This document shows, piece by piece, positions 1,057-3,274 of a stretch of DNA of 32,865 bases. The notes under the pieces were generated by a model that worked only from the letters and a program-made list of their open reading frames with translations, did no database searches and was not told the origin of the DNA. The position numbers were made by a program, and so were the translations under genes. Within the stretch, counting starts at the first letter, position 1; each line of letters starts with the position of its first letter. The stretch spans positions 1 through 32,865 of the forward strand of contig NZ_JALJYG010000018.1 of NCBI RefSeq assembly GCF_024170505.1, written 5' to 3'. Source of the DNA: Methanocalculus alkaliphilus. Lineage in GTDB: Archaea; Halobacteriota; Methanomicrobia; Methanomicrobiales; Methanocorpusculaceae.

Positions 1057-2577
1057 TTAATTCTTTTTAAATATATACCATCCTGTCATCGTCGCATCCA
1101 GAACCTCGGGCTTGTTCTTCTTTGTAAGGAGACTGACGATGATCATCGCAAGGAGTGCGAGTGTCACCGAGTAGAGGCTGAAGTGGACCGGTAGTTTGTC
1201 GATGAATTGATGGTAGTATCCAAAGACACCAGATCCGATCAGTCCAAGGCTCATTGAGGCGAGAGCCCCTTTTGTCGTCGCCCCCCGCCAGTACAGACCT
1301 GCCAGAATCGGGACTGCGAAGGTTGAGAGCATCACCCCGATACCCATCCAGATCAACCAGGCAAGCATCTCAGGCGGGTTGATCGCAAGAAGAAGCGAGA
1401 TACCGGCGGCGAGGAAGACAGATATCTTAGAAATCCGCAGGACCTTCGCATCCGGTGCATCAGGATGAAGGATGTTTTTGTATATATCCCATGAAAACAT
1501 CGTTCCGATGGTGAGCATCAGACGATCGGTCGTCGACATCACCGCTGCAAGGACGATGACGGCAAAGATACCCCATACAAAGACGTTTGGAGCTGCAAAC
1601 TCAACACCATACATAAACGCAAAGTCCTGCGCGTTTACAGCATCAGGAAGGACGAGCGTCCCTTCCTCTACAAGGACGCGGACGGCAAATCCAGCAAATT
1701 TCACAAGGAACATGACAACCAGGTAGACGAGGAACGCAATGAGCGGAGCCCATTTGAAGTATGTCGTCTCCCGTGCAGCAAGGACATTATTGATGACATG
1801 CGGAGCACAGGCAAGACCCACAGTGAGAAGAAGCCCGAATGAGAGGAGGAACTCCGGTGTTGCAAAGGCATACGGGGCATAGACGGGCGAGGGGAACCAG
1901 GGCTGGACGAAATTTGGATCGATACCCGCAAGAACCTGGTTGATATGCGTCAGGCCGCCGGCTTTTGCTATCAGGAATGGGGTAATCCCGATGACACCTG
2001 CGATCAGCAGACCCCCCTGGAGGAGCGTCGTCCATGAGACGGCATAAAGACCCCCGACGACGGTATAGGCGGTAATGATAATACCCGATATGATCAGGGC
2101 CTGCCAGTGCTCAATACCAAAGAGCCAGACCAGAACGATACTGATCGCGGTATACTGGCCGACGAGGTAGATGAGAGAGACGGTGATTCCTGCAATCGCA
2201 GATAAGCCACGCAACTCCCGTGCACTCTCAAAGCGGTGTGCAAAGTAATCCTCAAGGGTGAGATAGCCGTTCTCCCGGCCGACCCGGTGAAGCTTCACCC
2301 CGAAGATGGTGATACAGAAGGCAGCAGCAAGCGGGACAGCAATCTGTTCCCAGATCCCCGGCCATCCTGAGGAATAGCCAAACCCGGATACCCCGACAAG
2401 AGTCATACCACTGCAGATAGATGCAACCATCAGGATGGTAAATACCCAGAATCCAAGCGATCGGCCGGCAAGGATGTAATCCTCGGTATTATTGATCTTG
2501 CGGGAGGCCCATCCTCCAATCCCGATGAGCACGATACAGTACAAAATGATGATACCGACGGTTATAGGATCAGCCAT
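1057..2577 (-). CDS. Sodium:solute symporter (SSS family)
   Basis: This 506-residue polytopic membrane protein belongs to the SSS family, which imports small organic solutes with sodium. The N-terminus carries the family pattern of a first helix followed by a segment containing NNTEDYILAGRSLG. About 13 hydrophobic helices are spread over the full length. The conserved sodium-site region AAVMSTTDRLML is near residue 345. The length is normal for the family. The substrate cannot be told from sequence; acetate, proline and pantothenate carriers all fall here. The ATG lies two bases after the stop of a 35-residue single-helix protein, so the two are almost certainly co-transcribed. That upstream protein resembles the small accessory proteins known to accompany some archaeal SSS symporters. 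Confidence 0.93.
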   Translation of the reverse strand: MADPITVGIIILYCIVLIGIGGWASRKINNTEDYILAGRSLGFWVFTILMVASICSGMTLVGVSGFGYSSGWPGIWEQIAVPLAAAFCITIFGVKLHRVGRENGYLTLEDYFAHRFESARELRGLSAIAGITVSLIYLVGQYTAISIVLVWLFGIEHWQALIISGIIITAYTVVGGLYAVSWTTLLQGGLLIAGVIGITPFLIAKAGGLTHINQVLAGIDPNFVQPWFPSPVYAPYAFATPEFLLSFGLLLTVGLACAPHVINNVLAARETTYFKWAPLIAFLVYLVVMFLVKFAGFAVRVLVEEGTLVLPDAVNAQDFAFMYGVEFAAPNVFVWGIFAVIVLAAVMSTTDRLMLTIGTMFSWDIYKNILHPDAPDAKVLRISKISVFLAAGISLLLAINPPEMLAWLIWMGIGVMLSTFAVPILAGLYWRGATTKGALASMSLGLIGSGVFGYYHQFIDKLPVHFSLYSVTLALLAMIIVSLLTKKNKPEVLDATMTGWYIFKKN

Positions 2578-2579
2578 GA

Positions 2580-2687
2580 TCAGTCACCCTCCGGAAATCG
2601 AAGTCCCCATATGATAAGCAGGATGATGATGATGAGCACGACACCACCGACGGTATAGACGGTAAGTTCAGGCAGTCCGAATAACAT
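2580..2687 (-). CDS. Tiny one-helix membrane protein, probable symporter small accessory protein
   Basis: The reading frame encodes 35 residues. It starts MLFGLPELTVYTVGG, continues as a single hydrophobic helix (about residues 13-27, rich in Val, Ile and Leu), and ends in a short charged tail, RFPEGD. Its TGA stop is two bases from the symporter ATG at 2577, which argues for one transcript and a shared function. Very short one-helix proteins encoded just upstream of SSS carriers are known in methanogens, where they are named symporter small accessory proteins; membership here is inferred from size, topology and position. There is no clear Shine-Dalgarno site. A TATA-like GTTATATGTT lies about 28 bases before the ATG, so the transcript may be leaderless. 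Confidence 0.72.
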   Translation of the reverse strand: MLFGLPELTVYTVGGVVLIIIILLIIWGLRFPEGD

Positions 2688-2710
2688 ATCATGCTAATGT
2701 GTGACATGGT

Positions 2711-2720
2711 AACATATAAC
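2711..2720 (-). promoter_or_regulatory. TATA-like element of the symporter operon
   Basis: On the minus strand this reads GTTATATGTT and is centred about 28 bases upstream of the ATG at 2687. The spacing matches an archaeal TATA box serving a transcript that begins at or near the start codon. It lies between ilvN and the symporter pair and suggests the pair has its own promoter. Confidence 0.4.
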
Positions 2721-2773
2721 ATGCTCGATCTGATTCAACAGATAAAGCGGAAAACGAAAGATAAAAAGAGGGA

Positions 2774-3274
2774 TCAGTCCCCGGCTGAGGTCTTTGCCCC
2801 GCGGAGGACGGCGATCGTTCCTGTACGAATCAGCTCCTTGACCCCGTACTGCCTGAGAAGTGTTTCAAGAGCATCAATCTTGTCGGGATCGCCAACGACC
2901 TGAAGGACGAGGGTCTTTGCCCCGACATCGATGATCTGCGCCCTGAAGATATCTGCAATCTGCATCACCTCGGCCCGGGTCGTCCCCGGGCTCGCAGCAA
3001 CCTTGATGAGTGCCAGCTCCCGCCTGACATGCTCCCGATAGGTGATGTCTGAGACCTTGATGACATCGATGAGTTTATTCAACTGTTTTTTGACCTGCTC
3101 GATGACGGTATCATCACCCCTGACGGTGATGGTGATCCGGCTCATCTCAGGCTGCTCACAGGTACCGACGGCAAGGCTCTCTATGTTGAACCCACGCCGT
3201 GAGAACATCCCGGAGACCCTGGAGAGGACACCGGCACGGTTCTCAACAAGGATTGAGAGGGTATGGATCTTCAT
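2774..3274 (-). CDS. ilvN: Acetolactate synthase small (regulatory) subunit
   Basis: This 166-residue protein is the regulatory subunit of acetohydroxyacid synthase, which binds the catalytic IlvB subunit and confers feedback control by branched-chain amino acids. The N-terminal ACT domain opens with MKIHTLSILVENRAGVLSRV and includes GMFSRRGFNIESLAVG. The C-terminal small-subunit domain occupies about residues 85-160. Length is normal for an archaeal IlvN/IlvH. The start ATG overlaps the ilvB stop by four bases (ATGA), and a GGAGG site lies about nine bases upstream inside the end of ilvB, so the two subunits are translationally coupled. The gene ends the cimA-ilvB-ilvN cluster. ilvC and ilvD are not in the window. 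Confidence 0.96.
   Translation of the reverse strand: MKIHTLSILVENRAGVLSRVSGMFSRRGFNIESLAVGTCEQPEMSRITITVRGDDTVIEQVKKQLNKLIDVIKVSDITYREHVRRELALIKVAASPGTTRAEVMQIADIFRAQIIDVGAKTLVLQVVGDPDKIDALETLLRQYGVKELIRTGTIAVLRGAKTSAGD

Follow-up and report, generated by a model that had tools for sequence, protein, structure and literature searches.

Small subunits of SSS carriers are known from bacteria, with DUF4212, DUF485 and YhdT as kinds of them. NCBI also holds a family of 'symporter small accessory proteins', NF045580, and peptides of this kind are already known to NCBI curators under that accession. Among open-access papers, none was found that uses the phrase 'symporter small accessory protein', and near phrases and the accession NF045580 gave nothing relevant among the matches listed. 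For SGLT2, PMC10803289 describes a MAP17 helix in contact with TM13, attributes to it a presumed role in folding, stability and surface expression, and reports that the activity of SGLT2 is greatly enhanced by MAP17. The small protein CbrX is described as bound to the SLC5 domain of CbrA, on TM3/TM8 by cryo-EM, although PMC13022988 reports it to be dispensable for growth on histidine. According to PMC8871633, full translation of cbrX is required for that of cbrA, and mutations in cbrX leave Cbr activation unaltered. In archaea, sORF_05 of M. mazei is reported in PMC11456600 to be visible by Ribo-seq and to occur chiefly in the membrane fraction.

We analysed a stretch of 32,865 nucleotides from Methanocalculus alkaliphilus, which we call the window, where a short frame lies immediately before the gene for an SSS carrier. 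The relevant features are:

Positions 1057 to 2577, minus strand: SSS carrier of 506 amino acids (TIGR00813 over its cut-off, E 1.2e-58; PF00474; AlphaFold; Foldseek).
Positions 2580 to 2687, minus strand: one-helix peptide gene of 35 codons (translation; conserved before SSS genes; dN/dS 0.04–0.35; helix at residues 7–30).
Positions 2584 to 2592, minus strand: Shine-Dalgarno-like GGAGGGTGA ahead of the SSS gene, within the final codons of the peptide frame.
Positions 2688 to 2725, minus strand: promoter-like block, with GTTATATGTTACCATGTCACA at 2720 to 2700 and then ACATTAGCAT; the TATA-like box is about 30 nt before the ATG.
Positions 2774 to 3274, minus strand: acetolactate synthase small subunit gene (ilvN), the upstream neighbour (TIGR00119 over its cut-off).

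The sequence-only reading had claimed a 35-residue frame with an ATG and with a stop two bases before the symporter ATG, and both are confirmed, on the minus strand; the reading itself had named no strand. From 2687 to 2580 the DNA translates to MLFGLPELTVYTVGGVVLIIIILLIIWGLRFPEGD, followed by a TGA stop; the ATG occupies 2687-2685, the TGA 2582-2580, and two bases separate the latter from the ATG of the SSS gene (2577-2575). Reading the plus strand from 2580 gives different residues and no start codon there. The peptide is shorter than the limits of most gene finders. No NCBIfam model matches it, and its single Pfam match, to OppC_N, is at chance level (E 0.91). A profile built from 44 peptide rows (A1, which includes the window peptide and excludes the diverged peptides of genomes G057 and G099) found one match in the own genome at E ≤ 0.01, with an E value of 1.6e-17. 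The peptide is under purifying selection: in 28 pairwise comparisons among eight genomes of the genus, dN/dS ranged from 0.04 to 0.35 (a few of the values are simple ratios, with synonymous sites saturated), and the peptide genes of the window and of M. chunghsingensis differ by eight synonymous changes and one non-synonymous change. Coding constraint, which the sequence-only reading had made its touchstone, is thus what we found, and the 35-codon frame is a real gene.

Conservation before the SSS genes of other methanogens, also proposed as a check, is extensive. The peptide is directly before 82 of the 92 SSS matches above 400 bits in 100 related genomes; 74 were found by sequence match at E ≤ 1, five of them weakly (E 0.2–0.5) and resting on position too, and eight diverged peptides, at or overlapping the SSS start, were read by eye from fetched DNA (G035, G040, G045, G050, G057, G060, G088 and G099). 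Those of G057 and G099 are without the GLP motif and were assigned by position and hydrophobicity; profile A1 matches the one in G099 at E 0.002 and does not match the one in G057. Likewise, 75 of the 77 named loci carry the peptide directly before the SSS gene. Of the two loci without it, L247 has only 2 nt of DNA before the SSS gene, whereas at L192, the second SSS copy of M. taiwanensis, the peptide is truly absent. In the window, ilvN/ilvB/leuA-type genes are directly upstream of the peptide gene. Because ilvN was found upstream in just 33 of the 77 named loci (up to 3 kb upstream, with some loci holding little upstream DNA), the link between peptide and SSS gene outlives changes of neighbourhood. 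A second window-type peptide gene in another genome (L273 from base 205; G015:C3:2104-2208) has no SSS frame behind it; the frame that follows resembles a small kinase by eye, and a tandem duplication of the SSS locus may have left this gene behind.

Ten of the 92 close SSS genes, three from Methanocalculus and seven from Methanocorpusculum (loci L061, L062, L063, L070-L074, L077 and L078), have no adjacent peptide, and adjacency is therefore not obligatory. Each of the genomes concerned has another SSS copy that does carry the peptide, and in G006 and G007 the peptide-less and peptide-bearing copies are in tandem. The three Methanocalculus copies are 84–88% identical to the window SSS, and the eight of the ten copies that were placed on the SSS tree fall into two distinct groups, each with support and each confined to one genus. 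These copies suggest that a duplicated carrier can lose its adjacent peptide gene, presumably in this direction, and either share a peptide in trans or do without. Compared with 173 peptide-bearing rows, W23, E32 and L251 are changed in all three Methanocalculus peptide-less copies, and 17 other residues in all five Methanocorpusculum ones, with no changed position common to the two genera. The residues altered in peptide-less paralogs are at most a lead.

Profile A1 matches 101 of 392 genomes of the phylum, 34 of which are outside the window's order. Twenty of these 34 genomes had their matching loci fetched, and in every one the peptide immediately precedes an SSS gene. Seven of the matches belong to family f22, that of Methanothrix harundinacea, with SSS 53–61% identical to that of the window; two are from family f10 (72–74%), and eleven from family f9, where ten SSS are 32–34% identical to the window's and one 53%. 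Five matches among the other 14 genomes, in frames of more than 100 codons, are probably due to chance. The peptide family thus recurs before Methanothrix-type SSS genes and before a group of SSS of another family with about 33% identity.

The single hydrophobic helix that had been read from the letters agrees with the AlphaFold model of the window peptide, which has one helix at residues 7–30 and a mean pLDDT of 94. The same holds for the charged C-terminus: a Lys or Arg follows the last Trp in 43 of the 44 A1 peptides, and none of the 44 has one within its first nine residues. From this pattern, the positive-inside rule predicts an N-out/C-in orientation, and the peptide would span the membrane once, with its N-terminus outside and its C-terminus inside. 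Across the 44 A1 rows, residues L5, P6, T9, L24 and W27 never vary; in the broader alignment A3, of 27 rows, this holds for T9, L24 and W27.

The carrier of the window shares 98% identity with the M. chunghsingensis SSS, and the PanF and PutP models remain below their cut-offs on it (170 of 328 bits and 158 of 516 bits, respectively). Its AlphaFold model has a mean pLDDT of 87.7 and, by our own reading of the helix list, 13 membrane helices. The best Foldseek match of the model is 7wmv_A, a complex of SGLT1 and MAP17; when matches are ranked by VIA-align Z, carriers of sialic acid and choline come first (38.1 and 38.0), and SGLT1 scores 36.0. Those SGLT alignments that cover the model to its last residues break off at residue 567-569 of the SGLT chain (568 for SGLT2 7vsi, of 672 aa). 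The window carrier therefore seems to have no counterpart of the last SGLT helix, the 14th (TM13), with which MAP17 interacts in SGLT2. Sodium dependence of PutP-type carriers is marked by an aspartate, Asp55 in PutP; at about residues 53-57 of the window SSS this aspartate seems, by eye, to be replaced by a non-acidic residue, leaving the coupling ion of the carrier uncertain. ActP is also discussed for this aspartate in PMC7746861.

The promoter-like block before the peptide ATG looks like a TATA-like box plus a repeated TTAGCAT-like element. A block resembling TTATATGTTAGCATGGCAC, with at most 4 mismatches in 19 positions and 29–36 nt before the peptide start, occurs in 52 of 74 rows, a count made without a shuffled control on 73 named loci plus the window, of 78 examined. 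It is weaker in most Methanocorpusculum loci and was not found in the four Methanothrix-type loci examined and a few others. The window form is the sole match in its own genome at up to 3 mismatches, and within 200 nt of nine of the ten peptide-less SSS copies (all but that of G020) the best match has from 5 to 10 mismatches; the match with 5, in G006, is 128 nt away and keeps the TTATATG core. The conservation of such a block for one operon suggests a dedicated regulator, and the distance of the TATA-like box from the ATG points to a nearly leaderless message. In five loci, four titled Methanothrix and one Methanosarcinales, there is instead a ribosome-binding match 13 nt before a TTG or GTG start.

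As for the carrier, 78 loci were examined, which gave 73 rows, the window among them; in 53 of the 73 a ribosome-binding match of at least 5 nt precedes the SSS start, versus 355 of 2000 random 22-mers of the window. The distance from the peptide stop to the SSS start ranges from −17 to +23 nt, with gaps of 23 nt in five Methanothrix-type loci, and the three relative frames are used by 42, 20 and 11 of the 73 rows; as all three occur, the frame relation is not the conserved feature. For the same reason we rejected a programmed frameshift joining peptide and carrier, and no natural fusion of the two was seen among the frames inspected at the fetched loci.

Our preferred explanation, which we consider probable, is that the frame encodes an accessory (beta-type) one-helix subunit for the carrier whose SSS gene follows it immediately. 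The sequence-only reading had already suggested a subunit needed for folding or activity of the carrier; what stands of it is a membrane peptide closely linked to one SSS clade, while binding to the carrier and a functional need for the peptide are putative. MAP17 on SGLT2 and CbrX on CbrA are experimental precedents for such partners of SSS-fold proteins, but the ten close SSS genes with no adjacent peptide, and CbrX, which binds yet is dispensable for growth on histidine, count against a strict need. The frame might instead be a leader whose translation delivers ribosomes to the SSS start, its peptide having little or no function. The SSS ribosome-binding site inside the frame and the genes that mostly abut or overlap agree with this, and in cbrX there is a precedent, reported in PMC8871633, of translation that is needed for that of cbrA; however, the constraint on the amino acids (dN/dS 0.04–0.35), the invariant residues, the near-fixed length, helix and charge pattern, and the 23-nt gaps of the five Methanothrix-type loci all argue against it. 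The amino-acid constraint makes a pure coupling role unlikely, and we give it a low probability, while a double role, as subunit and in translational coupling, is quite possible. The peptide might also be a small membrane regulator or inhibitor, one that switches the carrier off or leads to its degradation and is not its constant subunit; co-location alone would fit this too, and a small protein of M. mazei is reported to mediate inhibition of ammonium transport (PMC10714827). We nevertheless regard this as improbable, since close co-location behind one promoter-like block better suits a stoichiometric partner.

Leaders of the IlvL type sense branched-chain amino acids through a run of Ile, Leu and Val codons beside acetolactate synthase genes. 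The peptide has such a run (VVLIIIILLII) and ilvN/ilvB/leuA-type genes directly upstream, but the positions that never change hold L, P, T, L and W, and within the Ile run A, G, F, T, S and V also occur. Moreover, ilvN was not found upstream in 44 of the 77 loci, some with little upstream DNA, there is no Rfam match within positions 2400–2900 of the window, and the two bases between the peptide stop and the SSS ATG leave no room for a terminator, all of which makes an attenuator controlling the SSS gene very unlikely. Lastly, short frames are common, with 84 ORFs of at least 30 aa overlapping the first 8 kb; yet an open frame due to chance is refuted by the conservation at 75 of 77 loci, the synonymous bias and the single profile match in the genome, and its probability is negligible.

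If the peptide is a subunit, the conserved promoter-like block before its ATG would drive transcription of the peptide-SSS pair, and ribosomes would reach the SSS gene through the ribosome-binding site inside the peptide gene, so that peptide and carrier would be made together. The helix of the peptide would then pack against the lipid-facing exterior of the 13-helix carrier, by analogy with MAP17 on SGLT2 or CbrX on CbrA, and would probably make contact through its GLPxxT cap and the end that holds Leu24 and Trp27; there it would stabilise or tune the carrier, and it may fill the place of the apparently absent TM13. A mean-field coupling analysis of 150 paired peptide and SSS rows put 12 of the 30 top couplings on TM11/TM12, with the strongest single coupling between peptide position 33 and SSS position 333. 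With 135 pairs, 8 of 30 were on TM11/TM12, and 11 of 12 within-clade permutations gave at least 8, while the mean top coupling score exceeded the real one in 7 of 12; as the candidate signal for a contact with TM11/TM12 failed this control, we rejected it as shared ancestry.

A broader and rather doubtful reading is that archaeal SSS are two-subunit carriers by rule, in which each SSS clade has a one-helix subunit of its own, the window and NF045580 types having one ancestor, and these subunits replace the extra helix of 14-helix relatives such as SGLT and are assembled during translation; it includes a nearly leaderless two-gene message and duplicates that borrow the subunit in trans or escape the need for it. 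Were the peptide a subunit, a carrier family usually treated as single-chain would have an overlooked second chain in many methanogens, and carriers expressed alone might show poor yield or wrong activity, as can be compared with SGLT2 without MAP17 (PMC10803289). Genomes with both peptide-bearing and peptide-less carrier copies offer a ready-made comparison.

Among described peptides, those of NF045580 (symport_access, 'symporter small accessory protein') are over the cut-off in 64 of the 100 relatives. In the genome of the window, NF045580 matches only at C12:58632-58730, a peptide with sequence MFGIPDPYIWVAYLLIIALAGACILYGLVNWNSGEGDLGS, and this makes a second peptide-SSS pair of NF045580 type in the same genome (G000:C12:58632-60108, L274), whose SSS is 27% identical to that of the window. 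The likeness in kind to known accessory subunits of archaeal symporters, claimed from the sequence, is therefore borne out by a peptide beside the other SSS of the same genome. At the 35-bit cut-off of NF045580, neither the window peptide nor nine relatives gave a match, whereas a true member scored 59.3. Both types have about 31–41 aa, one hydrophobic stretch and a gene directly before an SSS gene, and the charges of NF045580 peptides are as in the window type, with Lys or Arg near the N-terminus in 0 of 15 and near the C-terminus in 14 of 15. In contrast, the motifs differ, M.G[IL].D...Y-G in NF045580 and FGLP..T...L..W in the window type, and the NF045580 invariants G3, D6, Y26 and G27 (in 15 A4 rows) are replaced by others in the window type.

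The SSS partners also belong to different clades. We sorted 271 SSS frames from the fetched loci, overlapping loci included, by the peptide that precedes them: the window type is before 198 frames more than 50% identical to the window SSS and before 10 distant ones, whereas the NF045580 type is before 42 distant frames, of which none exceeds 50% identity. Neither type is present at 21 of the 271 frames, which are known peptide-less copies, loci cut at their ends and one uncut locus (L169). When the three peptide labels are mapped on an SSS tree of 79 rows (two of the 'none' rows being cut loci), they need five changes, compared with a mean of 26.8 in 200 shuffles. This sorting by SSS identity, together with the few changes on the tree, indicates that each SSS clade keeps its own type of peptide.

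Both types share an N-terminal cap M-x-G-[ILM], some 20 hydrophobic residues, an aromatic residue, a G or A and a basic stretch. Profile-profile comparison gave 68% over 12 columns for A1 against A2, and 87.8% (E 3.3e-6, 38 columns) for A3 against A4, to which sequences from f9 and Methanothrix had been added; slightly different settings gave 59% and a score of 29.8 for the latter pair. Over 60 shuffles of each sort, the control maxima were 7.8 with full column shuffles, 15.3 for the cap only and 36.7 for the helix columns only, versus the real 29.8. Given that helix-only shuffles reach 36.7 and cap shuffles 15.3, the likeness is above chance but comes from the end caps alone, and common descent of the two types is plausible from these sequences. 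Six of the ten f9 genomes searched score over the NF045580 cut-off; weak members at the f9 loci L180-L183 and L186-L188, with MLGMADVWTALGYLMTILSVIFCIAYGVWKWRG and similar peptides, look intermediate between the families.

No model of the DUF4212, DUF485 and YhdT kinds in Pfam and NCBIfam matched the window peptide at E values up to 1. A PDB search with the peptide profile retrieved no MAP17 chain, and its one match (E 0.85) was taken as chance. MAP17 (PDZK1IP1), as an auxiliary subunit of SGLT2 (SSS/SLC5), is a single-helix partner of a carrier with the SSS fold, as is predicted for the window peptide, and the window carrier is a relative of SGLT1/2, the partners of MAP17, in both fold and sequence; the contact helix TM13 of SGLT2, however, seems absent from the 13-helix carrier of the window. 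With CbrX of Pseudomonas, the window peptide shares a small hydrophobic product and a gene immediately upstream of, or overlapping, one with an SSS domain, and translational coupling of the CbrX type would fit the geometry of the window, where a putative ribosome-binding site is inside the frame, as it would the genes that mostly abut or overlap. CbrX differs in being described as a protein of 58 aa and two helices whose partner is a sensor kinase (PMC13022988, PMC8871633), whereas the window peptide has one helix, at residues 7-30, and no two-helix hairpin. The sORF_05 protein is likewise reported as an archaeal small membrane protein in a permease operon, but the permease is one for trimethylamine, and a subunit role is speculation by the authors of PMC11456600. 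In all, the window peptide is a second family, so far without a model, of a kind known from NF045580, and it is tied to its own SSS clade; this window-type family needs a profile model of its own, as the existing Pfam and NCBIfam models all miss the window peptide. What is new here is a separate family with its own motif, its own SSS clade and its own promoter-like block.
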